A DNA stretch of 52,706 nucleotides. It comes from Saprospiraceae bacterium. Lineage in GTDB: Bacteria; Bacteroidota; Bacteroidia; Chitinophagales; Saprospiraceae. The stretch covers positions 1 through 52,706 of the forward strand of contig JAIPBL010000043.1 in NCBI GenBank assembly GCA_021739645.1. The letters are read 5' to 3'. This document shows positions 21,865 through 49,682 of the stretch, piece after piece (the stretch's first letter is position 1; each line of letters opens with the position of its first letter). The translations under genes and the position numbers were made by a program. The notes beneath the pieces are model-generated. The model was not told the origin of the DNA. It searched no databases and saw only the letters and a program-made list of their open reading frames with translations.

Positions 21865-21939
21865 TTGAAAATGGAGAATTGAAAATTGAGAATTTGCCAC
21901 GTGCCATTTTCAATTTTTAATTCTCAATTATCCATTTGG
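21865..21939. repeat. Intergenic 7-mer inverted-repeat element between atpD and atpC (unit GAAAATT/GAGAATT)
   Basis: It begins directly after the atpD stop and ends one base before the atpC ATG. Left-arm units are GAAAATG, GAGAATT, GAAAATT and GAGAATT; the right arm contains the reverse-complement series TTCAATT, TTTAATT, CTCAATT. It must be transcribed in the atpDC message and can form a long stem. Confidence 0.85.
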
Positions 21940-21940
21940 A

Positions 21941-22246
21941 ATGAATATTACCATATTAACGCCCGATAAGGAGATTTTTCACGGTGAAATTGTGTCGGTA
22001 AAAGTGCCGGGCACCTTGGGTGAGTTTCAAGTACTGAAAAACCACGCTCCCATCGTTTCTTCCCTCAACAAAGGCACGGTGACGCTGGTGACAAACGGTG
22101 GGCCGCACCGTATTTATAACGAAGAAACCAGCACCATAGAAACCCAATCACAACCGGGGAAGACGGTTTCCTTTCAAATTGGTGGTGGCTTTATCGAAGT
22201 CTTGAACAATGAAATTTCCCTGCTGGCCAGGGGCTTGAAGAAATAG
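21941..22246 (+). CDS. atpC: ATP synthase F1 subunit epsilon
   Basis: A 101-residue protein matching the N-terminal beta-sandwich of ATP synthase epsilon (MNITILTPDKEIFHGEIVSVKVPGT... by pattern, GEFQVLKNHAPIVSSL). Epsilon is part of the central stalk with gamma and couples proton flow to catalysis. It is shorter than the roughly 135-140 residues of enterobacterial epsilon: the C-terminal two-helix inhibitory domain is missing, as in many Bacteroidota. It is cotranscribed with atpD and followed 28 nt later by an intrinsic terminator. Confidence 0.93.
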   Translation: MNITILTPDKEIFHGEIVSVKVPGTLGEFQVLKNHAPIVSSLNKGTVTLVTNGGPHRIYNEETSTIETQSQPGKTVSFQIGGGFIEVLNNEISLLARGLKK

Positions 22247-22273
22247 TTTTATTTTTTTATTTCGCTGTTGTTT

Positions 22274-22305
22274 AAGGGAAGAGTTTCAAAAGCTTTTCCC
22301 TTTTT
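22274..22305 (+). terminator. Intrinsic terminator after atpDC
   Basis: AAGGGAAGAG (22274-22283) pairs with CTTTTCCCTT (22293-22302) with one G-U pair; five T's follow the run of C's. Confidence 0.8.
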
Positions 22306-22346
22306 CATTTTCTAGCGAAACCTATTTAAAATCAGCCAGTTACCTT

Positions 22347-22399
22347 AACTGCCAACTGCCAACTGCCAACTGCCAACTGCCAACTGCCAACTGCCAACT
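22347..22399. repeat. Tandem 7-mer repeat AACTGCC x7 (single arm)
   Basis: Seven perfect AACTGCC copies plus AACT end inside the stop codon of the minus-strand gene at 22398. The unit is the 3'-arm type of the GGCAGTT elements seen at 33.7, 45.6 and 49.5 kb. Only a trace of an opposite arm (CAGCCAGTTA) is present. There are no spacers, so it is not a CRISPR array. Confidence 0.9.
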
Positions 22400-22784
22400 A
22401 AAGCTGCTTGTCTATCTCAATCAACTCCTCCAAGCTAAACTCACCGAACCAGTCCCTCAATTTCAGCCGTGCTTTGATGCGTACCTCATCGTTCACGTAG
22501 GCAGCAATGGTCACGAGGCCAAAACTCAAAACGCCGAGGTCGTCGGTGTAGCCGATGATGGGCGTCAAATCGGGTAGTGCATCTAAGGGCATGATGAAGT
22601 AGCCCAGAACGCCGATGATGATTCGCTTGGCCCAAATCGGCGTGTCGCTGCGGCGATAGGAGTAGAATAACAACAGCACGCTGTACACTACCTTCAAGCC
22701 CGCATGTTTGGCAAAATGCTGGATTTTTTTCAGCAGCCTGTTCTCTGTGAACTGGCGAGCGTATTTGTCAAAAGGATTTTTCAT
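22398..22784 (-). CDS. YkvA-family (DUF1232) membrane protein
   Basis: A 128-residue protein with the DUF1232 core: WAKRIIIGVLGYFIMPLDALPDLTPIIGYTDDLGV by pattern, with the family D-x-x-P-D-x-x-P-x-x-G-x-x-D-D signature. Two hydrophobic segments (about 35-50 and 55-100) suggest a small inner-membrane protein. No biochemical role is established for the family. The stop codon falls in the AACTGCC tandem repeat. It lies 20 nt downstream of the next minus-strand gene, so the two are probably cotranscribed. Confidence 0.8.
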   Translation of the reverse strand: MKNPFDKYARQFTENRLLKKIQHFAKHAGLKVVYSVLLLFYSYRRSDTPIWAKRIIIGVLGYFIMPLDALPDLTPIIGYTDDLGVLSFGLVTIAAYVNDEVRIKARLKLRDWFGEFSLEELIEIDKQL

Positions 22785-22804
22785 AAAAAAATAAAAAGGC
22801 TAAC

Positions 22805-23146
22805 TCATTCTCCCATCGCTTTTAGCAGTTGCTCGTACACCTGCACCCGCTTGCGATTGAGTCCGAACGAGCCTGTTTTTAGGATGGTGTAAATGAAATA
22901 CGCCATCCCAGCCAGGAAAATCGTGACGGTCAGCGAGCTGAACCTAGTCTTGAACAGCGCCACAGCGTAGGCCACAAACCAAATTGGACCAACCCATTTG
23001 TCCCGGGTCATCAGGTAGTTGCACTGTCCTATTTGCTCCCGCAACCAATCCACGCTGATTTCCTGCTCCCGTAACTTGGCCTGCTCTTTTGCGGACAATT
23101 CACTAATAATGCTTTCAAATTCTTTGGGTTGCAATTTTTTACCCAT
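22805..23146 (-). CDS. Small membrane protein of unknown function
   Basis: A 113-residue protein if it starts at MGKKLQPKEF (ATG at 23146); the open frame continues to 23212 but the extra residues look non-coding. Residues 1-45 are charged and helical (ELSAKEQAKLREQEISV). Two hydrophobic segments follow (about 52-68, IWFVAYAVALF, and 72-90, LTVTIFLAGMAYFIYTIL), then a basic tail. I do not recognise the family. It is likely cotranscribed with the YkvA-type gene downstream and separated by 99 nt from the rhomboid gene upstream. Confidence 0.65.
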   Translation of the reverse strand: MGKKLQPKEFESIISELSAKEQAKLREQEISVDWLREQIGQCNYLMTRDKWVGPIWFVAYAVALFKTRFSSLTVTIFLAGMAYFIYTILKTGSFGLNRKRVQVYEQLLKAMGE

Positions 23147-23245
23147 TTCTTGATTCTGTTTTTTAAAAATAGATGGAATGCCAATTTGGCGGGATGAAAT
23201 TACGAATTCCAACGGGACACGCTCGTTTTTTGCGCAGCGGCCATC

Positions 23246-23935
23246 TCAAGCCTGTTCCGGCTCCAGCTCGTCCGTTTCGAGTTCGACGGTGTCCAAATGG
23301 CCAGTGATTCGGAATAAGAAGCCAAGGACAAGACCGATTGCGAAGCCGCCAATATGCGCCCACCACGCCACGCCCCCGCCCATCCCGCTAGCCAGTGAGG
23401 AAGTGCCATAGGTCCACTGCTGAACAATCCAAAGTCCAAGGAAAATCCAAGCAGTGATTCGGAATGGAAAAACAAGGAATAACATTTTAATCCTTGAAGT
23501 CGGAAACATGACGAGGTAGGCGCCCATCACCGCCGAGATGGCCCCGCTGGCACCTACCATTGGCATCTCGCTGCCCATGTTGAACCAGATATGCGCAAAC
23601 ACCGCCACGAAACCACCGAAGAGATAAAATAGGAGGAATTTCAGGTTGCCCACGGTTGCTTCAATATTGTCGGCGAAGACCCAGAGGAAGAGCATGTTCC
23701 CGATGAGGTGCCACCAGTCGCCATGCACGAACATGCTGGTGCCGAGGGTGAAGAGGTCGGTGCCATGCGTGATTTCGGTGGGGATGGCGCCGAAGTACAG
23801 GTCAAACGCCTCCTGTTGCTCGATATTCAGGCTAAATTTATAAAGGAAAAATAAAATGTTCAGCACGATGAAGCTGTAGCTGAACCATGGCGTGTAGCCG
23901 CCTTTTACCTGGTCGTCGCCGATGGGAAAAATCAT
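23246..23935 (-). CDS. Rhomboid-family intramembrane serine protease
   Basis: A 229-residue polytopic membrane protein. The rhomboid fingerprint is visible: HLIGNMLFLW (His76, Asn80), catalytic Ser130 in GASGAISAVMG, and partner His194 in WWAHIGGFAIG. Rhomboids cleave transmembrane helices of client proteins within the membrane. ATG 23935 (MIFPIGDDQV) is preferred; the longer frame to 23989 reads into an intergenic repeat. The C-terminal 20 residues are acidic. No substrate is suggested by the neighbours, which are other small membrane proteins. Confidence 0.93.
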   Translation of the reverse strand: MIFPIGDDQVKGGYTPWFSYSFIVLNILFFLYKFSLNIEQQEAFDLYFGAIPTEITHGTDLFTLGTSMFVHGDWWHLIGNMLFLWVFADNIEATVGNLKFLLFYLFGGFVAVFAHIWFNMGSEMPMVGASGAISAVMGAYLVMFPTSRIKMLFLVFPFRITAWIFLGLWIVQQWTYGTSSLASGMGGGVAWWAHIGGFAIGLVLGFLFRITGHLDTVELETDELEPEQA

Positions 23936-23940
23936 TTTAT

Positions 23941-24012
23941 GAGGATTTGAGGATACGAGGATTTGAGAATGCGAGCGGAAGCCAATCAAATCCTCAAATC
24001 TTCAAATCCTCG
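23941..24012. repeat. Intergenic 8-mer inverted-repeat element (unit GAGGATTT)
   Basis: Left arm: GAGGATTT, GAGGATAC, GAGGATTT, GAGAATGC, GAG. Right arm: CAAATCCT, CAAATCTT, CAAATCCT. It lies between two minus-strand genes, starting 5 nt from one ATG and ending 3 nt from the other gene's stop. The same unit occurs at 38.8 kb and 46.9 kb. Confidence 0.88.
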
Positions 24013-24015
24013 TTT

Positions 24016-24372
24016 TTACAAGTCCCAGAAAGAACGGGGCCGATTGTAAACCTTAATCGTATCGGAAATGGTGTCAGCAAAATACCAGATGACCACACCT
24101 GCCACGGGCAAATAGGCAAAATCGCCCACTAGGTGCATCCAAATTGGCAAGCTGACGGCCAGTATGATGGATGTTTTCACGTAGTTCAGTCGCTTGATGT
24201 GGCGGTAAACATAAAAAAGGTGGAAGGCGCTAGCCAGTTGCCAGATGCCCAGCACCACCAGCATGACGTTGGTGGAGGCGATGCCTGATGCGAAACAAGC
24301 GAGCAGCACGATGGCCACAATCAGCAGAGCTTGACCCAACAGGTCTATTTTCATCCTGAATTTTGAAATCAT
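24016..24372 (-). CDS. Four-helix membrane protein of unknown function
   Basis: A 118-residue protein that is mostly hydrophobic: predicted segments near residues 10-30 (GQALLIVAIVLLACFASGIA), 33-53, 64-82 and 88-103, joined by short basic loops (YRHIKRLNYVK). The C-terminus is polar (YNRPRSFWDL). No family is recognised. It shares the minus strand with the rhomboid gene across a repeat element, so it may be the first gene of that small operon. Confidence 0.65.
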   Translation of the reverse strand: MISKFRMKIDLLGQALLIVAIVLLACFASGIASTNVMLVVLGIWQLASAFHLFYVYRHIKRLNYVKTSIILAVSLPIWMHLVGDFAYLPVAGVVIWYFADTISDTIKVYNRPRSFWDL

Positions 24373-24374
24373 AG

Positions 24375-24445
24375 TAAGAATAGACTATAGATTTTAGACA
24401 TAGACGTTAGACTTGAGATACCTTTGCCTGTCTAATGTCTCAGCA
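24375..24445. repeat. Intergenic 7-mer repeat element (unit TAGACNN)
   Basis: The left arm has TAGACTA, TAGATTT, TAGACA, TAGACGT, TAGACTT. A short right arm, GTCTAATGTCTCA, starts near 24430. It lies between divergent genes and contains a TACCTTTG box (24419-24426). Confidence 0.65.
24419..24426 (+). promoter_or_regulatory. Possible -7 box for the nitroreductase/pabB pair
   Basis: TACCTTTG matches TAnnTTTG and lies 37 nt before the ATG at 24463. No good TTTG was seen at the expected upstream distance, so this is a weak call. Confidence 0.45.
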
Positions 24446-24462
24446 AACCCAAAGTTAATACA

Positions 24463-25044
24463 ATGCCTTTTACTCCCGAACTCGTTTCCGAACTGATACG
24501 CAAGCGAAGGTCTATTTTTCCTAAAACTTATAATCAAAAGCCCATTCCAATGGCCATCATCGAGGAGGTATTGGAAAATGCCAACTGGGCACCCACCCAC
24601 CGGCTGACCGAACCTTGGCGTTTCAAAGTGTTCACTGGCCCGGCGCTCGAACGGTTGGGTGATTACCTGGCCGATTTTTACAGAAACAACACACCCGAAG
24701 AACAGTTTTCGGAGGCTAAGTTTACAAAGTCTAAAGAAAACCCACGGCGCTCGGCTTGCGTCATCGCTATTTGCATGAAACGGGACGCCGAGGAGCGTGT
24801 GCCTGAGTGGGAAGAGGTTGCCGCAGTAGCCTGCGCCGTGCAAAATATGTGGCTTACCTGCACTGCCCACCATGTCGGCAGCTATTGGAGCAGCCCAAAG
24901 GCTGCACTGGAAGCCGACGAATTCCTGGGGTTGGAGGCGGGAGAACGCTGCCTCGGCCTCTTCTACATGGGCTATCACGACCTGCCGGAACTGCCCGGTA
25001 AGCGTTTGCCAATTTCAGATAAAACAACTTGGGTTGTTGAGTAA
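24463..25044 (+). CDS. Nitroreductase-family flavoprotein
   Basis: A 193-residue protein of the FMN-dependent nitroreductase superfamily. The N-terminal RKRRSIFPKTYNQKP motif corresponds to the phosphate-binding R-R-S region; NANWAPTHRLTEPWRF is the conserved A-P-(S/T)-x-x-x-x-P-W core; the C-terminal GYHDLPELPGKR matches the usual G-Y-P-x-x-x-P region. Such enzymes reduce nitro, quinone or related substrates with NAD(P)H in the cytoplasm. The substrate here is unknown. The reading frame of pabB follows within about 10 nt, so the two are probably cotranscribed. Confidence 0.9.
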   Translation: MPFTPELVSELIRKRRSIFPKTYNQKPIPMAIIEEVLENANWAPTHRLTEPWRFKVFTGPALERLGDYLADFYRNNTPEEQFSEAKFTKSKENPRRSACVIAICMKRDAEERVPEWEEVAAVACAVQNMWLTCTAHHVGSYWSSPKAALEADEFLGLEAGERCLGLFYMGYHDLPELPGKRLPISDKTTWVVE

Positions 25045-25054
25045 AAATGCAGCA

Positions 25055-26347
25055 TTGACGAGACTTTCAGAACAATTCCAACTCCCGTCGGGTCATGATT
25101 TCAAGCAGCGGGCTTTCGATTGGGCGGCCAGTTTCGACGTGGCTTGCTACCTCGATAGCAACGGCTATCAAGGCGTCATCGGTGGTGAACATGATTGCCT
25201 GCTGGCGGTGGGTGCTGCTTCGCAAATTTGCCTCACTACCGAACACGGTGCTTTCGATTCGCTTAAATCATTTGTGGATGAAAAACAGGATTGGCTTTTC
25301 GGCTACCTGACCTACGACTTGAAAAATGACGTGGAGCCTCGCCTCGCTTCCAATAATCTTGATGGAATCGGCTTCCCAGCGCTTCATTTTTTTCAGCCGG
25401 AGGTAGTCATCGAAATTTCCTCAGAAACTACTAAAATCCACAGCCTGCAAGAAAGTCCTTTGAGCATTTTCCAATCAATATGTAAAGCCCTACCCCAAAA
25501 CTCGAAACTCGAAACTCAAAACTCAAAACTCCTTTCCCGCATCTCCCGCTCCGACTACCTCGACACCGTGCACACCATCCGCCAGCACATCCTTCGGGGC
25601 GATATTTATGAGATGAATTTTTGCCAAGAATTTTTTGCGGAGAACTATCAGCTCGATGCTCCGGCTACTTTCCGAAAGCTGAACAGCCTTGGCAAGGCCC
25701 CTTTTTCCAGCCATTATCGCCTGAACGACCGCTACTTGCTTTGCGCCAGCCCAGAGCGTTTTTTGAAAAAAACGGGACAAAAACTCCTATCCCAGCCCAT
25801 AAAAGGCACGATGCGACGGGGCCGAACTACCGAAGAAGATGCTGCATTGCGCCAGCAACTCCTCAAAAGCCCAAAAGATCGCTCGGAAAACGTGATGATT
25901 GTTGACTTGGTCAGAAACGACCTTGCCCGTTCTTGCCGAGCTGGCTCAGTGCAGGTGGAGGAGTTGTTTGGGGTTTACCAGTTCGAGCAGGTTTTCCAGT
26001 TGATTTCGACGGTGAGCGGCGAGTTGGAAACGGACGTTCATCCGGTGGATGCTATCCGACGGGCCTTCCCGATGGGTTCGATGACCGGCGCGCCGAAAGT
26101 GCGCAGCATGGAGCTGATTGAATTGTATGAAAAAACGAAACGGGGGCTATATTCCGGGACAGTTGGGTACTTCACGCCGCAAGGTGATTTTGATTTCAAT
26201 GTGGTGATTCGCAGCATTTTATACAACGCTGCCGACCGCTATCTCTCCTTCCAGGCCGGCGGCGCCATCGTGTTCGATTCCGTGCCAGAATTGGAGTACG
26301 AGGAGTGTTTGCTGAAAGCACAAGGGATGTTCAAAGTGCTCATTTGA
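25055..26347 (+). CDS. pabB: Aminodeoxychorismate synthase component I
   Basis: It converts chorismate and glutamine-derived ammonia to 4-amino-4-deoxychorismate for folate synthesis. Chorismate-binding motifs are clear: PIKGTMRRG, KDRSENVMIVDLVRNDLAR, and GSMTGAPKVRSMELI through YSGTVGYF near the C-terminus. The open frame extends back into the nitroreductase gene without an ATG; TTG 25055 is my best start (about 430 residues), and TTG 25034/25037 are alternatives. Oddly, five 7-mer repeats of the intergenic type (25497-25531) lie in frame just before the catalytic core and encode NSKLETQNSKL. They replace ordinary linker sequence and make the frame sensitive to slippage. Confidence 0.88.
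   Translation: MTRLSEQFQLPSGHDFKQRAFDWAASFDVACYLDSNGYQGVIGGEHDCLLAVGAASQICLTTEHGAFDSLKSFVDEKQDWLFGYLTYDLKNDVEPRLASNNLDGIGFPALHFFQPEVVIEISSETTKIHSLQESPLSIFQSICKALPQNSKLETQNSKLLSRISRSDYLDTVHTIRQHILRGDIYEMNFCQEFFAENYQLDAPATFRKLNSLGKAPFSSHYRLNDRYLLCASPERFLKKTGQKLLSQPIKGTMRRGRTTEEDAALRQQLLKSPKDRSENVMIVDLVRNDLARSCRAGSVQVEELFGVYQFEQVFQLISTVSGELETDVHPVDAIRRAFPMGSMTGAPKVRSMELIELYEKTKRGLYSGTVGYFTPQGDFDFNVVIRSILYNAADRYLSFQAGGAIVFDSVPELEYEECLLKAQGMFKVLI
25497..25531 (+). repeat. Five tandem 7-mers inside pabB
   Basis: AAAACTC, GAAACTC, GAAACTC, AAAACTC, AAAACTC (35 nt). These are 3'-arm units of the GAGTTTT/GAGTTTC intergenic elements at 1.9 and 48.5 kb. Gain or loss of one unit would shift the pabB frame. 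Confidence 0.9.
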
Positions 26348-26543
26348 TATTTTTCTTATTTTATATGAGTGTTTTGGCAAGGTAATTGTCTAAGGAACCA
26401 ATGTAGTTAGTTGGCGCAATTTCAGCTTTTTACACAAGTCGATTTTTGTTAACGTTTGCGCCTATCCAAATTCGAAATTTACTGATACTCAATACGTCCC
26501 ATGCAACATTTGTACATTAAATGTAAAAATCCACTGGCACAAC

Positions 26544-26765
26544 TTGGCTGTGCTTGGAGGGTTGCATGGGGTTGTCTTTCCCACTCATAAGTACTTCCCT
26601 TTCAGCCTTCCGATATTTTTGAATACTATTTCCTTCATCTCAAAAACGGTTTGGGCTATGATTATCTTTCAATTGGCAATCGGAGCATTTATTCTTGGTG
26701 GTGGCGTCATCACGCTGACCAACTGGCTGTCTGAACGGCTGGACAAGAAGCATTTGAGTGCCTGA
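26544..26765 (+). CDS. Possible small membrane protein
   Basis: A 73-residue frame; a shorter 35-residue product from ATG 26658 (MIIFQLAIGAFILGGGVITL...) looks more protein-like, with one transmembrane helix and a charged tail (SERLDKKHLSA). No family is recognised. The 196-nt gap before it (26348-26543) contains only a small palindrome, TACATTAAATGTA at 26513-26525. It could be chance. Confidence 0.35.
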   Translation: MAVLGGLHGVVFPTHKYFPFSLPIFLNTISFISKTVWAMIIFQLAIGAFILGGGVITLTNWLSERLDKKHLSA

Positions 26766-26767
26766 GA

Positions 26768-26806
26768 TTTGAGGGTTTGGGCCAGCCTCCCAGCTCAAAC
26801 CCTCAA
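26768..26806. repeat. Short intergenic inverted repeat (TTTGAGGGTTTG)
   Basis: TTTGAGGGTTTGGG and the complementary CAAACCCTCAA arm flank about 14 nt. The right arm includes the stop codon of the minus-strand oxidase gene and so encodes its last residues. It resembles the two-arm family but with few units. Confidence 0.6.
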
Positions 26807-27745
26807 TTGCTCTACCACCTCAAAAGCGCACCCCCACGACACGGTGTACCCGCCGCCGCCATGCCCATAATTATGGACAATATTGGTGGCTGGCTCCCGC
26901 TCCAATCGAATCGTCGTTCTACCGGGCCGCAAGCCCACTGCTACCGACCTCACTACCGCCGTTGCCAGCGCTGGCAACAAGTTCTGGCAACGGCGCAGAA
27001 TTCCCACAGAATCTTCTTCATTCGGGCTTTCATCGTCATTGGATAACCCCCCAAGGGGCAATTGCGCCGTGCCACCGAGCACGGTGCAATCTTTTCTCGG
27101 GAAAATATAGGCCAACGCATTTGGCCCGTCGTCGTCGGCGAGGTAGGGCAGCCCTGGCATCGGATCCACTTTCAAAATCTGTCCACGAATTGGAAACACG
27201 GCTTTGTCGCCGGTGAGCTTTCCTGCGGCAAGGCCCGTGCAGTTGATGAGCCAGTCTGGGGTCATAGCCATTTTGGCGAGGCTTTTTACTTCGCAAACGG
27301 TCAGTTCACCTCCATTCTCAAGGAATTTTTTTTGTAAAAAAGGCAGGTAAATCGGCGTCTCAATCATTGGCACACGAGCAAAGAAACCGTGCTGGTAGCC
27401 TGCTGGCAAGTCGCTTGCTGCGGCCTTCCAAAACCTCCCCGCTGGCATTGCATCAACCCAATCCGGAACATCAGGACTGTTGGCGAGGGTGAGTAAATTT
27501 ACCATCGAAACACCGCTTGAGGTGTCTTCCGACATTTTTTCAAAAACATCGTAACTAACTCTACTCCAACGGTTTACAAGCTCCAACGGCTCCACATGGA
27601 AGGGCATCCAAATCGCTGCCGCCACTGCCGATACGGTTGCCTCCGGCAAATCTTTTGTAAAAATATGCACCTCGTGTCCCGCTTCTTGCAAAGCAATCGC
27701 CGTGGTCAAACCAATGACGCCGCTGCCGATCACTGATATTTTCAT
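26795..27745 (-). CDS. D-amino-acid oxidase-like FAD protein
   Basis: A 316-residue FAD-dependent oxidoreductase of the DAO superfamily. The N-terminal Rossmann loop is VIGSGVIGLTTAIALQEAGHEV (Gly8, Gly10, Gly13 pattern). The C-terminal region carries VGLRPGRTTIRLE and NYGHGGGGYTVSWG, which closely resemble the substrate Arg and FAD-binding segments of D-amino-acid oxidases. Such enzymes deaminate D-amino acids to keto acids with H2O2. Its start overlaps the stop of the M20 gene by 4 nt (ATGA), so the two are translationally coupled. Substrate specificity is inferred from the family only. Confidence 0.88.
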   Translation of the reverse strand: MKISVIGSGVIGLTTAIALQEAGHEVHIFTKDLPEATVSAVAAAIWMPFHVEPLELVNRWSRVSYDVFEKMSEDTSSGVSMVNLLTLANSPDVPDWVDAMPAGRFWKAAASDLPAGYQHGFFARVPMIETPIYLPFLQKKFLENGGELTVCEVKSLAKMAMTPDWLINCTGLAAGKLTGDKAVFPIRGQILKVDPMPGLPYLADDDGPNALAYIFPRKDCTVLGGTAQLPLGGLSNDDESPNEEDSVGILRRCQNLLPALATAVVRSVAVGLRPGRTTIRLEREPATNIVHNYGHGGGGYTVSWGCAFEVVEQLRV

Positions 27746-28938: not shown

Positions 28939-29381
28939 AATCAGAAATCAATTGAACTGGCAACCTTAGTCGCTGATACAGATGGCAAAGATGCCTAACC
29001 GGGTCTGGCATGGGGATAAAAACATTATCAACTTCAATAAACACAACGCAAAATGCAATAAACACGCTGTCAAATTAAATAAATTTATAAAATGATACAA
29101 TAAACATAGCATAAAATACAATAAATATATCATAAAATATAATAAACACGCCATCAAACAGAATAAACACAAACCAAATCACTAAAAATTTTCATTTTAT
29201 TTTATTTGTCAACTATTCACCTTTACAGTAGATAGTTTCTAGAAAAATACTTTTGCTGGCTAAAAAATATCTCCCCTGAAAATACTGCAAAATATAAAAA
29301 GATTACAATCTTTGTCTCACCAGTTATTTTAATGCCTGGCACCTGAAATAAAGAACTTTAACTCAATAACCTTTTGATATT
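28939..29381. other. AT-rich gap with tandem repeat
   Basis: No convincing gene. It holds the 21-nt tandem array at 29035-29181, a CATCTTTG box (minus, 28986-28993, one mismatch to TAnnTTTG) that could serve the M20 gene, and TACTTTTG (plus, 29248-29255) that could serve the gene at 29382. Confidence 0.5.
29035..29181. repeat. Seven-copy 21-nt tandem repeat
   Basis: Seven consecutive 21-nt units, most beginning (C/T/G)AATAAAC or a variant and ending in CAAAA/TAAAATA-like sequence, at 29035, 29056, 29077, 29098, 29119, 29140 and 29161. There are no spacers. Because 21 is a multiple of 3, the minus strand is open and would encode a hydrophobic heptapeptide repeat (CLLYFMI-like). It lies 97 nt upstream of the M20 gene. 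Confidence 0.85.
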
Positions 29382-33698: not shown

Positions 33699-33765
33699 GG
33701 CAGTTGGCAGTTGGCGGTCATTACCGGATTCCAAGGACTCGACTGCCAACTGCCAACTGCCAATT
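33699..33765. repeat. Intergenic 7-mer inverted-repeat element (unit GGCAGTT)
   Basis: The left arm GGCAGTTGGCAGTTGGCGGT and right arm GACTGCCAACTGCCAACTGCC flank about 20 nt. The right arm ends 2 nt before the stop codon of the minus-strand barrel gene. Confidence 0.88.
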
Positions 33766-38812: not shown

Positions 38813-38893
38813 TGAGGATTTGAAGATGCGAGGATTCGAGTATCTGAGCGGATGCAGGTCAAATCCTCGCATCCTCAAATCTTCAAATCCTCA
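38813..38893. repeat. Intergenic 8-mer inverted-repeat element (unit GAGGATTT), between blaI- and blaR1-like genes
   Basis: Left arm: GAGGATTT, GAAGATGC, GAGGATTC, GAGTATCT, GAG. Right arm: CAAATCCT, CGCATCCT, CAAATCTT, CAAATCCT. It starts 3 nt beyond one ATG and ends 6 nt from the other gene's stop. Same unit as at 23.9 and 46.9 kb. Confidence 0.88.
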
Positions 38894-42777: not shown

Positions 42778-42854
42778 GCACTGATTGTATGATACTTGGT
42801 CGGCTGCGGTAAAACGTGGTTGGCCATCCATGAGAATTAGAGATTTTCATTCTC

Positions 42855-42898: not shown

Positions 42899-42932
42899 CG
42901 CAAACATCACTACCTTAGAAACAAACCAAATT

Positions 42933-43795: not shown

Positions 43796-43824
43796 TTGAA
43801 AAGAGACTGGAATGGCTACCTTTG
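43796..43824 (+). promoter_or_regulatory. Promoter of the atpBEFHAG operon
   Basis: TTG (43796-43798), 18-nt spacer, TACCTTTG (43817-43824); predicted start near 43831. It therefore rules out the ATG at 43812 as the atpB start. Motif and spacing are the same as for atpD. The rest of the 43623-43795 gap shows nothing notable. Confidence 0.78.
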
Positions 43825-43871
43825 CACCGCTTTTCAAAAAGCGGGTCGAAATGCCAATAAAATTAAAACAG

Positions 43872-45188
43872 ATGCGTCGCTATATATTAAGCTTCATTTT
43901 TCTTCTCAGCCTTTCCGTTTTTGCATTTTCACAAGAACACAACGAGCCACAAAGTGGCGGGCAGCCAACTGGTGAACATCCAGCCGGTGGTGAGGTGGAG
44001 CACGGCGACCCCGGCGCAATAGACCACCAAGACCACGGCACGGAAGCCCATGATGCAGGGTGCGGCCCTCAGGAGGAGCACGAGTTTGACCCAGGTGCAA
44101 CGGCTTTTCACCACATCGCCGACCAAAACATCTACAGTATTGGACCATGGAATTTCCCACTCCCTTGCTTTCTGTACGCCCCAGACCACGGCTGGTCCGT
44201 TTTTTCCTCTGGCAAATTTCATGCGGATGCACACGGCAATGGCCATGTAGCTGTTGACAAATATGTGCTCGTAGAAGGCATGGTGCAGCGCATAACTGAC
44301 CCGACTTTCCCGGATGGCGAAGTTGAAGTGGCGCACCACCCTTATTTCCAGAAAGTAAAACGGGGAGATGGCGGCGAGAAAGAAATAGCATCCATCTGCT
44401 ACGAATCCAAATTATACCCTGCCGAAGACCGCAGCACTGCTGACGGCGGCCTGTTCGGCGGCGGCATTACCTCGTTCTACGATTTTTCTTTGACGAAGAA
44501 TGTCACTTCGATGATTTTCATTTTTGCATTACTTTCCTGGATGTTCCTATCCATTGCGAAAGCATACAAAACTCGGGACGGCATGGCGCCTAAGGGCATG
44601 CAGGGCTTCATCGAGCCAATCTTTATTTTCATTCAAGACGAAGTGGCCAAGCCATTTTTAGGGCATAAATGGGAGCAATACCTGCCGTTCCTCATGGCGC
44701 TTTTCTTTTTCATTTTGGCACTTAACCTTTTTGGTCAAATCCCATTCCTGGGTGGCTCGAACGTTTCTGGCAACTTGGCAGTAACGATGGTTTTGGCCAT
44801 TATCACCTTTTTGGTGGTGAACCTCAGCGGCAACAAGAACTACTGGGAGCATATCCTTTGGATGCCCGGTGTACCAGCATGGGTAAAAGTCATCCTCACA
44901 CCGGTTGAATTGCTGGGTGTGTTCATCAAGCCGATGACCCTGATGCTTCGTCTTTTTGCGAACATCACAGCAGGCCACATGGTAATGGTCATTTTCGTGA
45001 GCTTAATCTTTGTGTTTAGTAATAATGGTATAAACGTAGGTGCAGGTTACGGCACAGCCATCGGCTCAACGTTGCTGACCTTGTTCATGATGACCATCGA
45101 ATTGTTGGTGGCCTTCATTCAAGCGTTCGTGTTCACCATCTTGACTGCCTCCTACATCGGAGCAGCCACGGAGGAGGCGCATCACTAA
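43872..45188 (+). CDS. atpB: ATP synthase Fo subunit a
   Basis: A 438-residue protein from ATG 43872, giving the signal-like start MRRYILSFIFLLSLSVFAFSQ; ATG 43851 is also possible. After the leader comes a long His/Glu-rich periplasmic region (to about 200), typical for Bacteroidota subunit a, then the membrane domain with the proton half-channels. The essential Arg is in MTLMLRLFANITAGH; the last helices read LLTLFMMTIELLVAFIQAFVFTIL by pattern and carry the conserved Glu and Gln. It works with the c-ring to convert proton flow into rotation. First gene of the operon. Confidence 0.95.
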   Translation: MRRYILSFIFLLSLSVFAFSQEHNEPQSGGQPTGEHPAGGEVEHGDPGAIDHQDHGTEAHDAGCGPQEEHEFDPGATAFHHIADQNIYSIGPWNFPLPCFLYAPDHGWSVFSSGKFHADAHGNGHVAVDKYVLVEGMVQRITDPTFPDGEVEVAHHPYFQKVKRGDGGEKEIASICYESKLYPAEDRSTADGGLFGGGITSFYDFSLTKNVTSMIFIFALLSWMFLSIAKAYKTRDGMAPKGMQGFIEPIFIFIQDEVAKPFLGHKWEQYLPFLMALFFFILALNLFGQIPFLGGSNVSGNLAVTMVLAIITFLVVNLSGNKNYWEHILWMPGVPAWVKVILTPVELLGVFIKPMTLMLRLFANITAGHMVMVIFVSLIFVFSNNGINVGAGYGTAIGSTLLTLFMMTIELLVAFIQAFVFTILTASYIGAATEEAHH

Positions 45189-45280
45189 ATTGTTGAGATT
45201 GCTGAATTGTTTGATTGTTATTTCCCCTCACGGCAATCAAACGACTCAAACAATCCCAACAATAAGACAATACAACAATC
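45189..45280. repeat. Intergenic inverted-repeat element between atpB and atpE
   Basis: The left arm (TTGTTGAGATTG, CTGAATTG, TTTGATTG) starts directly after the atpB stop; the right arm (CAATCAAACG, ACTCAAACAATC, CCAACAATAAGACAATACAACAATC) is the rough reverse complement. It is in the operon message. Confidence 0.8.
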
Positions 45281-45297
45281 TTTTTTATAACCTTTAA

Positions 45298-45516
<219 letters not shown>

Positions 45517-45542
45517 TTATTGCTGCGTTTCGCAAAAAAAGA

Positions 45543-45585
45543 GGCAGCCTACGGTGACGGTTGGTCACTGGGGCTGCCAATTTTA
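45543..45585 (+). terminator. Hairpin after atpE
   Basis: The outer stem GGCAGCC/GGCTGCC (45543-45549, 45572-45578) encloses an inner stem GTGAC/GTCAC; AATTTT follows. Inside an operon this could be a partial terminator or a 3'-end stabiliser that lets atpE mRNA accumulate. Confidence 0.65.
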
Positions 45586-45587
45586 AA

Positions 45588-45655
45588 GTTGGCAGTTAGA
45601 CAGTTGGCAGTTGGCAGTCAAGTCAATGGCCAAATTCAAAAGCCAATAATTTAAT
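45588..45655. repeat. Intergenic repeat element between atpE and atpF (unit GGCAGTT)
   Basis: The left arm GTTGGCAGTTAGACAGTTGGCAGTTGGCAGT by units; the right arm is degenerate (AATGGCCAAATT, AAGCCAATAATT). It lies just after the atpE hairpin. Confidence 0.75.
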
Positions 45656-45676
45656 CGAAAGAAATAACAAATCGTC

Positions 45677-46189
45677 ATGATTTTTCTAATAGATTTTACA
45701 CCAATCAAGCCGGACTTCGGCCTCATTTTCTGGACGACCATCATCTTCCTGATTTTCTGGCTGATGATAGGCAAGTTCGCCTTCCGTCCCATCGCTGCTG
45801 CCCTGAAAAAGCGGGAATCAGACATCCAAGGCTCGCTCGACGAAGCCAAGCGGGTGCGGCAGGAAATGCAAAACCTCAAGTCAGAAAACGAGGCACTCCT
45901 CATACAAGCCCGCGAGGAGCGTGCACAGATTTTGAAGGAAGCCAAAGAGGCTGGCAACCGGCTTGTAGATGAAGCTAAAGGCAAGGCCAAGGTGGAAGCG
46001 CAAAAGATTGTTGCCGATGCCAAAGAGCAGATAGAGCACCAAAAAATGGCTGCCATCACCGACCTGAAAAATCAGTTAGGCGCTTTCTCCATTCAAATCG
46101 CCGAGAAGGTCATCCGCCGAGAACTCAGCACCAACAAGGAGCAGGAGGGTTTCGTGAATGATTTGGTGAAGGAAATTAAGCTTAATTAG
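45677..46189 (+). CDS. atpF: ATP synthase Fo subunit b
   Basis: A 170-residue peripheral stalk protein with one N-terminal membrane helix (LIFWTTIIFLIFWLMIGKF) and then a long charged helix/coiled coil (KKRESDIQGSLDEAKRVRQEM, AREERAQILKEAKEAGNRL). A dimer of b holds the F1 head still through subunit delta. Length and layout are normal; the C-terminal IAEKVIRRELSTNKEQ motif is well conserved in the family. Confidence 0.96.
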   Translation: MIFLIDFTPIKPDFGLIFWTTIIFLIFWLMIGKFAFRPIAAALKKRESDIQGSLDEAKRVRQEMQNLKSENEALLIQAREERAQILKEAKEAGNRLVDEAKGKAKVEAQKIVADAKEQIEHQKMAAITDLKNQLGAFSIQIAEKVIRRELSTNKEQEGFVNDLVKEIKLN

Positions 46190-46257
46190 TTATGAGTGAT
46201 GAGTTATAAATTTGGCACTGCCAACTCATAACTCATAACTCATAACTCATCACTAAC
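46190..46257. repeat. Intergenic 7-mer inverted-repeat element between atpF and atpH (unit GAGTTAT)
   Basis: The left arm (TTATGAGTGATGAGTTATAA) starts at the atpF stop; the right arm (AACTCAT, AACTCAT, AACTCAT, AACTCAT, CACTAAC) ends 4 nt before the atpH ATG. Confidence 0.85.
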
Positions 46258-46261
46258 AAAG

Positions 46262-46828
46262 ATGAGTGTTCAAAGAATAGCATCAAGGTACGCCAAGTCG
46301 CTGATAGACCTTGCCCAGGAGCAAGGCAAGCTAGAGCGGATACTGGAGGACGTGGAGTCTTTCCAGAAAGTGGCCAATAACCGTGACTTTTTGCTCATGC
46401 TGCGGAGTCCTGTCGTAAAAGCCGATACCAAAGGGAAGGTGTTCAACCAACTTTTCAAAGGTAAATACGATGAAATGACCATGGCCTTTTTACAAATTTT
46501 GCTCCGCAAAGGCCGGGAAGCGCAGTTGGCAGAAATCGCTGACGAGTACATCGCTCAGTTCAAAGCAATCAAGCATATCTCCACGGTAAAATTGGTTACA
46601 GCTACAAAACTGAGCGATGAAGCAGTGAAAAGCATTCACGACAAGCTCCTCGCCAGCACCTCCACCGACAAAATCGTGGAGTTGGTTACTAAAGTGGATG
46701 AAGGCCTTATCGGCGGCTTCATCATTGAGTTTGAGGACAAACTATACGATGCTAGCGTCGCCCACAAGCTGAGCAAAATGAAAAAGGACTTCAAAGACAA
46801 CCTTTATATATCGCAAATAATGGCTTAA
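46262..46828 (+). CDS. atpH: ATP synthase F1 subunit delta
   Basis: A 188-residue protein of the delta/OSCP family linking the b stalk to the top of F1. The N-terminal six-helix domain starts RIASRYAKSLIDLAQEQGKLE (family A-x-x-Y-A-x-A-L pattern); the C-terminal part has the conserved VDEGLIGGFIIEFEDKLYDASV, matching the delta signature G-x-x-x-x-x-G-D-x-x-x-D-x-S with minor change. It lies in the normal gene order between b and alpha. Confidence 0.95.
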   Translation: MSVQRIASRYAKSLIDLAQEQGKLERILEDVESFQKVANNRDFLLMLRSPVVKADTKGKVFNQLFKGKYDEMTMAFLQILLRKGREAQLAEIADEYIAQFKAIKHISTVKLVTATKLSDEAVKSIHDKLLASTSTDKIVELVTKVDEGLIGGFIIEFEDKLYDASVAHKLSKMKKDFKDNLYISQIMA

Positions 46829-46835
46829 CGAAGGG

Positions 46836-46928
46836 TTGAGGATGCGAGCATTTGAGCATTTGAGGATTTGAGCGGCTCATCCGCTGTCCCCTCGAATCCT
46901 CAAATCCTCAAATCTTCGAATCCTCAAA
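46836..46928. repeat. Intergenic 7-8-mer inverted-repeat element between atpH and atpA (unit GAGGATTT)
   Basis: The left arm (GAGGATGC, GAGCATTT, GAGCATTT, GAGGATTT) and right arm (CGAATCCT, CAAATCCT, CAAATCTT, CGAATCCT) flank a small AGCGG/CCGCT hairpin. Same unit as at 23.9 and 38.8 kb. Confidence 0.88.
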
Positions 46929-46938
46929 CAATAATAAT

Positions 46939-48525
46939 ATGATTGACGTAAAACCAGACGAAATATCCGCCATACTCAAACAGCAATTGAGTGGATTTAG
47001 CTCGGCTACCGAACTGGAAGAAGTAGGTACAGTGCTTCAGGTCGGCGACGGTATCGCCCGTGTTTACGGCCTGAACAAAGCACAGGCTGGTGAATTGGTT
47101 GAGTTTTCTACCGGCGTACAGGCCGTGGTGCTCAACCTTGAGGAAGACAACGTGGGCGTGGTGCTCATGGGGCCCAGTGACCATATCCGGGAAGGCTCCA
47201 CGGTGCGCCGCACAGGCCGCATCGCCTCCATCGAAGTAGGTGAGGAGTTCGTAGGCCGGGTAGTGAACCCACTTGGACAGCCCATTGACGGCAAGGGCCC
47301 TATCGGCGGCAAAAAGTACGAAATGCCACTGGAGCGCAAAGCTCCTGGCGTCATCTACCGCCAGCCGGTGAACGAGCCGCTACAAACGGGCATCAAGGCA
47401 ATTGACTCCATGATTCCGATTGGCCGTGGCCAGCGGGAGTTGATCATTGGCGACCGCCAAACAGGCAAGACGGCCATCGCCATTGACACCATTATCAACC
47501 AGAAAGAATTTTACGACCGGGGCGAACCGGTTTTCTGTATCTACGTTGCGTCAGGACAGAAGGCTTCAAACGTGGCCAACGTGGCCAAGACGTTGGAGGA
47601 TGCAGGTGCCATGGACTACACGGTCATTGTATCCTCTTCCGCTTCCGACCCTGCACCGCTGATTTTCTATGCGCCATTTGCAGGTGCTTGTATCGGTGAA
47701 TACTTCCGTGATACGGGTCGCCCAGCACTCATCATCTACGATGACCTTTCCAAGCAGGCCGTGGCCTACCGGGAAGTATCGCTGCTGCTGCGTCGCCCAC
47801 CAGGACGTGAAGCCTACCCTGGCGACATCTTCTACCTGCACAGCCGCTTGCTCGAACGTGCTGCGAAGATCATCAACAACGACAAGATTGCGCAGAGCAT
47901 GAACGACCTTCCGCCAAGCCTCTTGGAGGCAGGTATCGTGAAGGGTGGTGGTTCACTCACAGCATTGCCCATCATCGAAACACAGGCTGGTGACGTATCG
48001 GCATACATCCCGACCAACGTAATCTCCATCACCGACGGTCAGATATTCCTCGAAACCAACCTGTTCAACTCCGGTATCCGTCCTGCCATCAACGTGGGTA
48101 TCTCTGTGAGCCGGGTAGGTGGTTCAGCGCAGATTAAGTCCATGAAGAAAGTATCTGGTACGCTGAAGATTGACCAGGCCCAGTACCGGGAGTTGGAGGC
48201 ATTCTCCAAGTTCGGTTCCGACCTTGATGCTTCGACGGTGGCTGTACTTGAAAAAGGCAAGCGCAACGTGGAAATCCTGAAGCAACCACAGTACTCCCCG
48301 GTTCCGGTGGAGAAGCAGGTGGCCATGATTTACCTCGGCACCAAGGGCTTGGTCAGGGAGGTTCCCGTGGAGAAAATGAGGGAGTTCGAAGAGATTTTCC
48401 TCCTGAAATTGGAGCAGCTACACCCAGCAGTCCTCGAAGATTTCCGCAAGGGAGGCCTCAGCAATGAGTCTTTGGCCATCGTGGAAAAACTCGCAGGAGA
48501 ATTGGTGAAGCAGTACAAAAAATAG
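46939..48525 (+). CDS. atpA: ATP synthase F1 subunit alpha
   Basis: A 528-residue subunit; three copies alternate with beta in the F1 head and bind nucleotide at noncatalytic sites. The P-loop GDRQTGKT is at residues 171-178. Other marks: [49 protein letters not shown] (the alpha signature region), and [22 protein letters not shown] by pattern. Length is typical for Bacteroidota. It is flanked on both sides by repeat elements. Confidence 0.98.
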
Positions 48526-48605
48526 TTTTGAGTTATGAGTTTCGAGTTTTGAGTTTCGAATTGTCAAACGGGCAACTTGAAACTCGAAACTCGAAACTCG
48601 AAACT
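48526..48605. repeat. Intergenic 7-mer inverted-repeat element between atpA and atpG (unit GAGTTTC/GAGTTTT)
   Basis: The left arm starts directly after the atpA stop (TTTTGAGTTATGAGTTTCGAGT by units) and the right arm (AACTTGA, AACTCGA, AACTCGA, AACTCGA, AACTAAA) ends 8 nt before the atpG ATG. Same unit as at 1.9 kb and inside pabB. Confidence 0.9.
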
Positions 48606-48612
48606 AAAAAGA

Positions 48613-49506
48613 ATGGCAAACTTAAAAATAGTACGGGAGCGCATCACCTCTGTGCAGAATACGCAACAGATAACGAAAGCCATGAAAATGGTTTCGGCAG
48701 CCAAATTGCGCAGGGCGCAACAGGCCGTTCAGAAGATACGCCCTTATGCCGACAAGCAGAACGAGATGCTCCGCAACATCCTGTCGAACCTCGGTGGACA
48801 GGCCAGCACTTCGTTTGGCGTAGAACGCCCATTGAAAAAAGCCTGCGTTGTGGTCGTTACCTCCAACCGGGGACTTTGCGGTGCATTCAACACCAACGTA
48901 ATCAAGGAAGCTATCCTGGCCATTGAAGGCAAGTACGCTGAAGCAAGGGACTCGGGCAACCTCACTATTTTGCCCATCGGCAAAAAAGGAAATGATGTGC
49001 TGCGCAAGCGGTATCCAAATGCCACCTTCAACCGGAATTTTGTTGAAATATTCAGCGACCTCAGCTTCGACAACGTAGCGCAGGTTTCACAAGTGCTAAT
49101 GGACGAGTTCGAAGCTGGCAATTTCGACAGCATTACGGTGGCTTATGGCCGTTTCAAAAACGCAGCGACCCAGTTCCCCGAAGCAGAGCAGTGGCTACCC
49201 GTTCCAAAAATGGAAGCTACGGGCGACGGCAACAAAGCCCTGGCCGATTATACTTTCGAGCCAGACATGGAGGGCCTCCTCAATGTCCTCGTGCCGAGCA
49301 TCCTCCAGACCACGTTCCAGAAATACCTGCTGGACACCCACGCCTCCGAGCACGGCGCTCGTATGACGGCCATGGACAAGGCCACGGAGAACGCCAACGA
49401 GATGTTGAAAGACCTGAAACTCATGTACAATAAAGCCCGCCAAGAAGCCATTACCGGGGAAATCCTCGAAATCGTTGGAGGCGCTGCGGCTTTGGAAAGT
49501 GCTTAA
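48613..49506 (+). CDS. atpG: ATP synthase F1 subunit gamma
   Basis: A 297-residue central shaft protein. The N-terminal helix is ANLKIVRERITSVQNTQQITKAMKMVSAAKLRRAQ by pattern; the middle has VVVTSNRGLCGAFN; the C-terminal helix has ENANEMLKDLKLMYNKARQEAITGEILEIVGGAAAL by pattern, the gamma signature. ATG 48613 is chosen because 12 further upstream residues would be encoded by the intergenic repeat. It is the last gene of the operon. Confidence 0.97.
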   Translation: MANLKIVRERITSVQNTQQITKAMKMVSAAKLRRAQQAVQKIRPYADKQNEMLRNILSNLGGQASTSFGVERPLKKACVVVVTSNRGLCGAFNTNVIKEAILAIEGKYAEARDSGNLTILPIGKKGNDVLRKRYPNATFNRNFVEIFSDLSFDNVAQVSQVLMDEFEAGNFDSITVAYGRFKNAATQFPEAEQWLPVPKMEATGDGNKALADYTFEPDMEGLLNVLVPSILQTTFQKYLLDTHASEHGARMTAMDKATENANEMLKDLKLMYNKARQEAITGEILEIVGGAAALESA

Positions 49507-49507
49507 A

Positions 49508-49682
49508 AGTTTGCAGTTCGACAGTTCGACAGTTGGCAGTCAGTTTCTGCTAAACCCAACTTTCCCAACTTTAATAAAAAAAGGCTTATTTGCTCTTGCG
49601 ATAAGCCTTTTTTCATTGATAAACTGTCCATCTGAAGAACCGATAATCTGACTGCCCACTGCCCACTGTCGAACTGCAAACT
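49508..49682. repeat. Split inverted-repeat element (units GCAGTTC/GCAGTTG) enclosing the atp operon terminator
   Basis: The left arm 49508-49543 (AGTTTGCAGTTCGACAGTTC by units) and right arm 49648-49682 (CTGACTGCCC...CTGCAAACT) are reverse complements over about 35 nt but are separated by 104 nt that hold a perfect terminator stem. The right arm touches the next ATG. Confidence 0.85.
49578..49613 (+). terminator. Intrinsic terminator of the atpBEFHAG operon
   Basis: AAAAAGGCTTAT (49578-49589) pairs with ATAAGCCTTTTT (49601-49612); T's follow and A's precede, so it works on both strands. Confidence 0.9.

Follow-up and report, generated by a model that had tools for sequence, protein, structure and literature searches.

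The gene junctions of a Saprospiraceae (Bacteroidota) genome hold palindromic elements whose arms are tandem runs of 7- or 8-nt units, and relatives often have such an element in the same gap with other letters, so that place and rhythm appear to be retained and the sequence rewritten. We propose that these are STRR-type heptamer and octamer palindromes that live in operon gaps and are kept there as self-folding, renewable spacers, a reading to which we assign a probability of about 0.45. The window, by which we mean the whole stretch of 52,706 nt under analysis, was scanned together with 60 further pieces of the genome (973,890 of 6,157,607 bases in all). An ungapped detector, which misses bulged elements, found 15 hairpins with arms of at least 15 nt in the window, 9 of them 7/8-periodic in both arms. 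Over the 973,890 bases, with arms of at least 16 nt, 50 of 154 hairpins had lag 7 (30) or lag 8 (20) in both arms; these 50, including 9 in the window, are the strict two-arm elements counted below, a number biased slightly upward by three of the 60 pieces (C5, C36 and C108), which were placed on unit-pattern matches. Lag 9 (n = 3) and lag 6 (n = 1) bring the periodic hairpins to 54. Chance origin is ruled out by shuffles of intergenic DNA and of each gap's own letters; a single shuffle of intergenic DNA left no hairpins there, a control that did not cover the 20 of 54 periodic hairpins that a crude ORF mask put as mostly ORF-covered. The features of the window are as follows.

1878..1942, unstranded: two-arm element, unit TTTTGAG (7), loop 17
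6015..6109, unstranded: two-arm element, unit of 8, ATTGGGAT-like, absent from the original prediction
21863..21936, unstranded: atpD-atpC element, unit GAAAATT/GAGAATT (7), its two arms confirmed at 21867-21932
22346..22400, unstranded: lone arm, about 7.6 copies of AACTGCC; a partner was looked for and none found
23941..24011, unstranded: two-arm element, unit GAGGATTT (8)
33699..33761, unstranded: two-arm element, unit GGCAGTT (7)
38813..38893, unstranded: two-arm element, unit GAGGATTT (8)
45189..45281, + strand: atpB-atpE element, ATTGTTGA-like unit, bulged; lag 8 in the ungapped scan, lag 9 in gapped arms
45586..45618, + strand: atpE-atpF, one-armed GGCAGTT run 3' of a conserved hairpin; second arm not significant
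46188..46247, + strand: atpF-atpH element, unit TTATGAG (7)
46836..46927, + strand: atpH-atpA element, unit GAGGATTT (8)
48526..48610, + strand: atpA-atpG element, unit TTTTGAG/TTTCGAG (7)
49508..49682, + strand: atpG-next, two arms, GACAGTTC/GGCAGTT-like, 98 nt apart
49573-49617: intrinsic-terminator-like hairpin enclosed by the atpG-next arms

Two-arm elements had been predicted for the atpD-atpC, atpB-atpE, atpF-atpH, atpH-atpA, atpA-atpG and atpG-next gaps, and at each of these the palindrome score exceeds all 60 shuffles of the gap's own letters. The same holds for the sites named at 1.9, 23.9, 33.7 and 38.8 kb, but not for the one at 24.4 kb (8.5 versus a shuffle maximum of 9.5). A two-arm element had also been claimed for atpE-atpF; what lies there is the one-armed run beside an unrelated conserved hairpin (8.5 versus 10.5). 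At the Rfam gathering score no element in the window was matched, the sole matches being two group II introns.

Each arm is a tandem run, and the perfect and near-perfect 7/8-nt runs support the tandem growth first suggested for these elements. Tandem stretches number 37 at lag 7, 19 at lag 8 and 8 at lag 9, with at most 2 at each of lags 5, 6, 10 and 12. The 5' arm is rich in G, T and A and the 3' arm is its complement: the left arm has more G than C in 52 of 54 periodic hairpins and in all 34 elements of the 14 blocks from the genus (the window contributes 9), compared with 47 of 87 non-periodic hairpins, 30 of which have the opposite bias. Lone arms carry G on the sense strand in 2 cases and on the antisense strand in 5, too few for a strand preference. 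The 50 elements reduce to 30 consensus units, in keeping with one design built from many units. The accompanying claim that they are not copies of one sequence is thus right as to the diversity of units, but identical units do recur at dispersed loci, in 36 pairs (simulation mean 2.8, maximum 11). Variant letters within units are mirrored between the arms in 97 cases and not in 54, against 45.7 mirrored with right-arm units permuted (p ≤ 5e-4), so that the arms do co-vary, as had been proposed. Stops in all three frames were considered as the purpose of the 7/8-nt rhythm and rejected, a stop triplet being present in only 28 of 50 units. A search with unit patterns gave 20 matches versus 0 for the reversed-pattern control; a second search of the same genome gave 59 versus 28, the reversed pattern also matching because GAGTTTTGAGTTTTGAG is identical when read backwards.

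The elements are sorted by place. Gaps hold 44 of the 50 (39 co-directional, 2 convergent and 3 divergent), with 5 in called genes and 1 at a contig edge; gene calls come from our own hexamer script, which missed some probable genes, such as ORF 10585-12201. The 87 non-periodic hairpins are spread as 31 co-directional, 22 convergent, 7 divergent and 27 that lie within or overlap genes or stand at edges. Counted by gap, elements occupy 37 of 436 co-directional, 2 of 110 convergent and 3 of 115 divergent gaps (Fisher 0.0012; this and the other p-values were computed without kinship, and related genomes are not independent). They lie a median of 4 nt past the stop codon and 14 nt ahead of the next start, and in 28 of the 39 co-directional cases the distance from the stop is between -3 and +9 nt. 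Once the element is removed, at most 40 nt remain in 24 of 37 gaps, versus 21.6% of 399 element-free co-directional gaps (1e-7). The 12 nt past the 3' arm are A-rich (197 of 480 letters).

The original prediction was staked on close relatives having such structure at the same junctions, and they often do. In the genus set (63 atp junction rows from 14 genomes, 11 atpG-next rows left out), 31 rows passed the thresholds; a passing element occurs at atpF-atpH in 9 of 13 genomes, atpH-atpA in 9 of 13, atpA-atpG in 8 of 11, atpB-atpE in 4 of 13 and atpE-atpF in 1 of 13. Among these congeners a site tends to keep its period and to exchange its unit. The period found most often at each site accounts for 27 of the 31 elements (permutation p = 6e-4), yet of 106 same-site pairs drawn from different genomes only 13% have at least 40% of their 5-mers in common. 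Replacement of units is nevertheless incomplete, since unit likeness between genomes is higher at the same site than at different sites (mean 0.195 versus 0.101; p = 3e-4, labels shuffled within genomes). In other Bacteroidota, 26 elements fall in 372 kb of atp clusters (20 of 79 loci) versus 7 in the surrounding 588 kb (p = 5e-6); beyond the genus the elements in atp gaps are sparser and often have other units than here. Density differs strongly from genome to genome. In Mucilaginibacter sp. SMC90, 400 kb sampled evenly as 20 pieces yielded just 2 elements, a number too small for statistics, and the spacer role proposed below therefore cannot be general. A set of 20 pieces was taken from seven other genomes, 19 being chosen on GAGTTWY pattern matches; its 29 hairpins include 5 periodic ones (4 of lag 7), and the pattern-match arrays there appear by eye to be mostly single-armed.

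Selection for foldable RNA as such, which the original prediction had suggested, is not supported by the arms. Mismatches between arms, read in the mRNA sense over three sets, comprise 61 G.U and 82 A.C, with no G.U excess, which weakens models where RNA folding matters much. The conserved atpE-atpF hairpin of the same operon served as a control and gives 41 G.U to 15 A.C (Fisher 1.3e-4), with its register picked per sequence for most Watson-Crick pairs and with L145 and G072, apparently one genome, both counted. The ratio is also unbiased in non-periodic atp hairpins (15:14) and shows no clear bias in non-periodic co-directional hairpins of the same genome (11:7), and therefore the test separates only strong pair-by-pair selection. 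In two relatives (G061 and G066), the atpH-atpA arms have drifted to different units. With their mirrored variants and no G.U bias, the arms look as if they are kept alike through DNA copying and not by fine RNA-pairing selection.

We suggest that arrays grow and shrink via 7/8-nt slippage and that the second arm may be produced, and later renewed, by fold-back copying that starts at the 3' end of the G-rich strand, a mechanism that would account for the fixed polarity. The likeliest role would be that of an intra-operon spacer insulating the start region of the next gene. In Flavobacterium johnsoniae, an A at -3 and scarce base pairing around the start (about -20 to +20) tune initiation (PMC6847099). 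A self-pairing, easily renewed spacer could separate the terminating ribosome and upstream mRNA from the A-rich, unstructured initiation region used by SD-less Bacteroidota, giving the next cistron its own start, and this shielding may be the reason that elements are retained in operons. Such a function would need a self-folding spacer of some 45-90 nt and no particular letters. The spacer is not required, as the atpF-atpH gap is at most 38 nt long and without an element at 37 of 72 named Bacteroidota loci. The wider proposition that many Bacteroidota use self-renewing DNA palindromes as cistron insulators, with position, rhythm (7/8) and polarity kept and letters rewritten by fold-back copying and slippage, no sequence or RNA base pairs being conserved, is one we put forward tentatively and consider doubtful.

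These short, element-free atpF-atpH gaps also suit a nearly neutral or selfish repeat DNA, which would arise anywhere by slippage and fold-back and survive only in operon gaps, without function, since coding DNA, the promoters of divergent gaps and the terminators of convergent gaps would not tolerate palindromes. So do the lack of an RNA-pairing bias, the ability of arms to drift apart, dispersed loci with common units and the variable density. However, convergent gaps should tolerate insertions, yet just 2 of 110 hold elements, and gaps of at most 40 nt make up 1,006 of the 68,859 bases of element-free co-directional gaps, yet by remainder 24 of 37 elements are there. The same junctions moreover recur across genera and beyond, with atpA-atpG foremost at 30 of 86 in the set that counts both L145 and G072. 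We regard neutral repeats as a possible but somewhat unlikely account. Intercistronic RNA hairpins under selection for their effect on mRNA stability or processing, comparable to the E. coli BIME/REP 3'-end stabilisers or to further 3'-UTR hairpins, would agree with the position directly past stop codons in operons, the median folding energy of -38 kcal/mol and the non-periodic hairpins that other lineages have at certain of these atp gaps; the 61:82 ratio beside the 41:15 control makes this account distinctly improbable.

Dispersed mobile palindromes (MITE- or REPIN-like) copied by a transposase would account for unlinked loci with identical units, and the genome has seven matches to Y1_Tnp, the RAYT-type domain, six of them above the cut-off. 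A single mobile sequence is ruled out by the 30 different units, and no common loop or flank was seen by eye when elements with the same unit were compared, for the four commonest units. The loci with unit AGTTTTG have in common, by eye, an odd unit variant bearing GGG, which mobility could also explain. REP/BIME are palindromes in gaps after genes. The REP palindromes of enterobacteria are tagged GTAG or CGTC (cf. PMC3733652), whereas the elements here have tandem 7/8-nt arms and no conserved sequence, GTAG being absent from all 50 and CGTC present in one; REP/RAYT membership is rejected for want of the tags, and mobility of any such kind is very unlikely. Intrinsic terminators or attenuators would likewise be stable hairpins past stop codons, but TTTT follows within 12 nt of the 3' arm in only 3 of 40 elements (8 of 31 non-periodic hairpins), convergent placement is seen in 2 of 50, five elements are internal to atp clusters (four of them in atpB-G and one in atpD-C), and the terminator-like hairpin at atpG-next is a separate structure within the loop between the arms. 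Placement and the lack of a U-tract leave termination with hardly any credibility; the elements are neither terminators nor REPs.

Their nearest known counterparts are heptamer arrays: the Xanthomonas GGGAATC inverted pairs, the cyanobacterial STRRs and the Nostoc trnL P6b stem. STRRs are dispersed tandem heptamers, mostly single arrays, that can lengthen RNA stems; they were reportedly described in cyanobacteria by Mazel in 1990, and one in RNase P RNA is said to have been described by Vioque in 1997. The elements here have tandem heptamers in common with STRRs but come from another phylum; like STRRs and the Xanthomonas arrays they are dispersed in gaps and built of tandem 7-nt units, in 30 of the 50, the other 20 having lag 8. 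Excerpts of Rehm et al. 2015 (PMC4692102) describe heptamer repeats of GGGAATC in Xanthomonas and GGGGA(C/T)T in Nostoc/Anabaena, and mention three tandem heptamers in Calothrix. In Xanthomonas, two GGGAATC arrays are convergently inverted as potential stem-loops in 70 and 75 cases, and most sites lie between the same genes in two species while length and sequence vary (PMC4692102). As here, intergenic heptamer copies are many and few lie between divergent genes; unlike here, each genome there has a single type of unit, whose potential to form G-quadruplexes was studied, in place of 30 units in 50 elements, periods of 7 and 8 and stop-to-start placement in operons. Neither GGGAATC nor GGGGAYT occurs among the 30 seven-nt units here. 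In the P6b stem of the Nostoc trnL group I intron, with heptamer classes TDNGATT and NNTGAGT, the motif has repeatedly switched class as a whole, with little change in structure (PMC4476775). Here too stems are built on a heptamer motif that is replaced while structure persists, and 7 of the 30 units fit NNTGAGT (random mean 0.8, maximum 5) and 2 fit TDNGATT (random 0.9). That case concerns one cyanobacterial intron site and two classes, in contrast to the many sites and units here, where elements lie between protein genes and Rfam matches at the gathering score include no group I intron in the window. TAACTGA direct repeats occur in Beggiatoaceae, some cyanobacteria and five Bacteroidetes (MacGregor 2015, PMC4679880, in excerpt); they are heptamers in gaps as well, mostly within several nt upstream of starts, but with one unit and one inverted case in 170 sets, unlike the inverted design here, and TAACTGA is absent from the 30 seven-nt units. 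For heptamer hairpins in Bacteroidota, a search of the open-licence literature returned nothing closer than MacGregor 2015 and Rehm 2015. The design thus has precedents: heptamer arrays and inverted pairs of them have been described, and "categorically new" would not hold.

The functional role of bacterial heptamer repeats remains to be elucidated, in the words excerpted from Rehm et al. (PMC4692102). In the present lineage repeats of this type are ordered by location (in operon gaps, running from stop to start), by polarity and by rhythm, and orthologous gaps show their units being replaced, so that the old question of why 7 nt is favoured in bacterial repeats, and whether such repeats have any function, can be put to direct tests. 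A G.U/A.C check should precede any reading of intergenic hairpins in these genomes as RNA structure, since they may be products of copying at the DNA level. Between atpE and atpF, many Bacteroidota have a covarying hairpin with a GGTTG loop. At 26.75 kb, the window holds a further palindrome of weak period, with a score of 13 versus a shuffle maximum of 8.5.

Palindromes with both arms built from 7- or 8-nt units occupy most gaps of both atp clusters in the window, which is one entire contig (C35) of a genome totalling 6,157,607 bases whose closest named relatives by AtpA, among the matches listed, are Saprospiraceae MAGs. TRF, an inverted-repeat search, and our own hairpin scan were concordant. 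When each gap was compared with 60 shuffles of itself, the palindrome score exceeded all of them at 1.9, 6.0, 23.9, 26.75 (where the period is weak), 33.7, and 38.8 kb and likewise at atpD-C, B-E, F-H, H-A, A-G, and G-next. The scores at atpE-F and 24.4 kb stayed within the shuffled range. The original prediction of two-arm elements thus stands for most atp gaps and is weak at the latter two sites. The features of the window discussed here are as follows.

25496-25531: lone heptamer run CTCGAAA/CTCAAAA, within the ORF at 24872-26347 (pabB/trpE-like by eye)
29050-29167: AT-rich tandem array of period 42/21, AAAATACAATAAACACGCCATC...
45536-45586, + strand: GGTTG-loop hairpin at atpE-atpF, with near-invariant loop CGGTTGG
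49507-49682: atpG-next element, heptamer arms 98 nt apart around an ordinary terminator-like hairpin
51302-51593: group II intron RNA domains (Rfam RF02001 and RF01998), close to the contig end

In the genus genome G070 (locus L062), the same atpG-next gap also has heptamer arms about 100 nt apart with a terminator-like hairpin between them, so the loop of an element can hold another hairpin. Lone runs of 7- or 8-nt units lay within called genes in 13 of 28 cases in the genome sample.

We scanned 973,890 bases of the same genome, comprising the window and 60 pieces, 3 of which were placed on known pattern hits. This sample held 154 hairpins with arms of at least 16 nt, and in 54 both arms had the same period (7 in 30, 8 in 20, 9 in 3, and 6 in 1). 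After one shuffle none was left in intergenic DNA, while presumed ORF DNA, which a crude mask left unshuffled, retained 28 hairpins, 14 of them periodic. The 50 elements of period 7 or 8 have a median length of 71 nt, with arms of 26 nt and a loop of 17.5 nt. Their placement is that of mainly operon-gap elements, as judged from a co-directional bias, stop-to-start spacing, and short residual gaps: 39 lie between co-directional genes, 2 between convergent and 3 between divergent genes, 5 within called genes, and 1 at an edge. Counted by gap, an element was present in 37/436 co-directional, 2/110 convergent, and 3/115 divergent gaps (Fisher, 0.0012); background gaps of at least 60 nt numbered 321, 70, and 108, respectively. 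The median element begins 4 nt after a stop codon and ends 14 nt before the next start. Once the element is subtracted, no more than 40 nt of the gap is left in 24/37 cases, compared with 21.6% of 399 element-free co-directional gaps (1e-7), and among co-directional gaps of 55 to 120 nt, 24/136 hold a strict element. Nonperiodic hairpins were placed convergently in 22/87 cases, as expected of terminators.

The elements have a fixed polarity, the G/T/A-rich arm coming first on both strands. G exceeds C in the 5' arm of 52/54 periodic hairpins, of 34/34 elements in genus blocks (including the window's 9), and of 31/33 in 79 named atp loci; among the 87 nonperiodic hairpins, 47 had more G and 30 less. 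The 50 elements fall into 30 consensus units, and identical-unit pairs numbered 36 against 2.8 expected (maximum, 11). The view that they are one design rather than copies of one sequence therefore survives in that units are many, but it needs amending, since some units are dispersed within the genome. A separate 9-nt two-arm CAGATTT family, CGCAGATTTTGCAGATTT...TTCCTTCGGAAAAATCTGCG, differs from the 7/8-nt elements; its three copies (L133:10908, L139:6455, and L141:10483 among the pieces read) resemble each other in the loop.

These elements are a variant of described heptamer repeats. Rehm et al. 2015 (PMC4692102) describe Xanthomonas heptamer arrays, with 70 and 75 cases as convergent inverted pairs, most sites having the same neighboring genes in two species and their role being given as unknown. 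MacGregor 2015 (PMC4679880) describes TAACTGA direct repeats ahead of start codons, five Bacteroidetes included, and cites Mrazek 2007 for heptamers as the most abundant longer simple repeats in most genomes; in Nostoc (PMC4476775), the heptamer-built P6b stem of trnL shifted class repeatedly while its structure stayed similar. What marks the present elements is that they have many units per genome, a period of either 7 or 8, a fixed polarity, and a place in operons, a combination that we did not find described in the open-licence literature searched.

Selection acting pair by pair on the mRNA would favor G.U over A.C among sense-strand mismatches. The counts were 26:29 in 44 elements of this genome, 14:23 in 25 of the family, and 21:30 in 25 from named loci, or 61 G.U against 82 A.C when pooled, whereas the atpE-atpF hairpin of the same operon gave 41:15 (innermost 8 pairs, 59/102 junctions; P = 1.3e-4 for the difference between the two). 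The proposed selection for a foldable RNA is thus not borne out, although strong selection is all that this test can register, ordinary hairpins having given 11:7 in co-directional gaps of this genome and 15:14 elsewhere in the atp gaps. The arms do covary, as had been anticipated: 97 variant letters of the left arm are mirrored in the right and 54 are not, where permutation of right-arm units predicts 45.7 mirrored. At atpH-A of G061 and G066, two genus genomes, GAGGACTT makes up the left arm, and the right arm is complementary to GAGTGTTT; the arms, drifting separately, have been homogenized to different units, with 3/8 pairs per unit broken. The missing G.U bias, the in-register mirrored variants, and the separate drift favor copying between arms combined with slippage within them, which would explain these results as fine selection on RNA pairs would not. 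The units of the G-rich strand, rich in G and T, could mispair with themselves, and fold-back copying may start from this strand's 3' end; if it does, fixed polarity would follow.

Across 63 atp junctions in 14 genomes of the genus, the elements above our thresholds recur at atpF-H (9/13 genomes), H-A (9/13), and A-G (8/11), with fewer at B-E (4/13) and E-F (1/13). The atpF-H unit is TTATGAG in the window's genome (G000), G066, G067, and G069, and elsewhere GGGATGA (G061), GGTGATT (G068), ATGGTGA (G065), or an 8-mer (G064 and G070). The commonest period per site covers 27/31 elements (permutation P = 6e-4), being 8 in 9/9 at H-A and 7 in 8/8 at A-G. When units of one site were compared across genomes, just 13% of the 106 pairs had at least 40% of their 5-mers in common, yet same-site unit likeness (0.195) exceeds that between units of different sites, whether taken across genomes (0.101) or within one (0.155); units thus appear to turn over while leaving a trace. 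G065 has no element at atpB-E and retains the leader upstream of atpE, and G071 and G062 had none at the thresholds used, with ordinary hairpins at some of their atp gaps.

Beyond the genus, 20 of the 79 named loci contained elements within the atp cluster, 26 in 372 kb, compared with 7 in 588 kb around it. Under a looser rule, all genomes read gave 30/86 at atpA-G, 21/103 at F-H, 11/106 at H-A, and 6/97 at B-E. Pedobacter and Mucilaginibacter use another dialect of units (AGTATCA, AGATATG). Mucilaginibacter sp. SMC90 has just 2 elements in 400 kb, both co-directional and 2 and 7 nt past the stop, which argues against a simple rule. The fixed 7-mer pattern GAGTTWYGAGTTWYGAG matched in 39/395 genomes of the phylum.

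To our knowledge, Bacteroidota lack Shine-Dalgarno sequences. Past the 3' arm, the next 12 nt are rich in A and seldom contain a U-tract, and in Flavobacterium johnsoniae initiation is favored by an A at position -3 and by little pairing around the start (PMC6847099). A self-closing element placed between the stop codon and an A-rich start region would separate two cistrons, and such separation is our best guess at a role from place and shape. Not far behind is the reading that the elements are tolerated repeats without function, which is brought close by the 37/72 named atpF-H gaps of no more than 38 nt and by element densities that differ among genomes.

The atpE-atpF hairpin, which follows the c-subunit gene, is a candidate structured RNA. 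Its GGTTG pentaloop is closed by a C-G pair, and its stem covaries strongly in many Bacteroidota. CG[AG]TTGG with at least 22 nt on each side occurs at 65/102 atpE-atpF junctions; in the 51 of these that were aligned, two-sided pair changes filled 178 cells compared with 65.6 after shuffling, and the covariation score was 0.692 compared with 0.238. Rfam at the gathering threshold gave no match at the hairpin. Our covariance model found a single copy in the window's genome, at atpE-atpF, and matched in 21/118 genomes of the phylum, counted irrespective of place. In atpE-atpF gaps of Chitinophagaceae and others (e.g., loci L180, L185, L198, L205, L210, and L215), the recurring motif TGCATCC..GCANAGGGC..GGATGCA replaces the GGTTG hairpin and is perhaps an alternative structure at this site.
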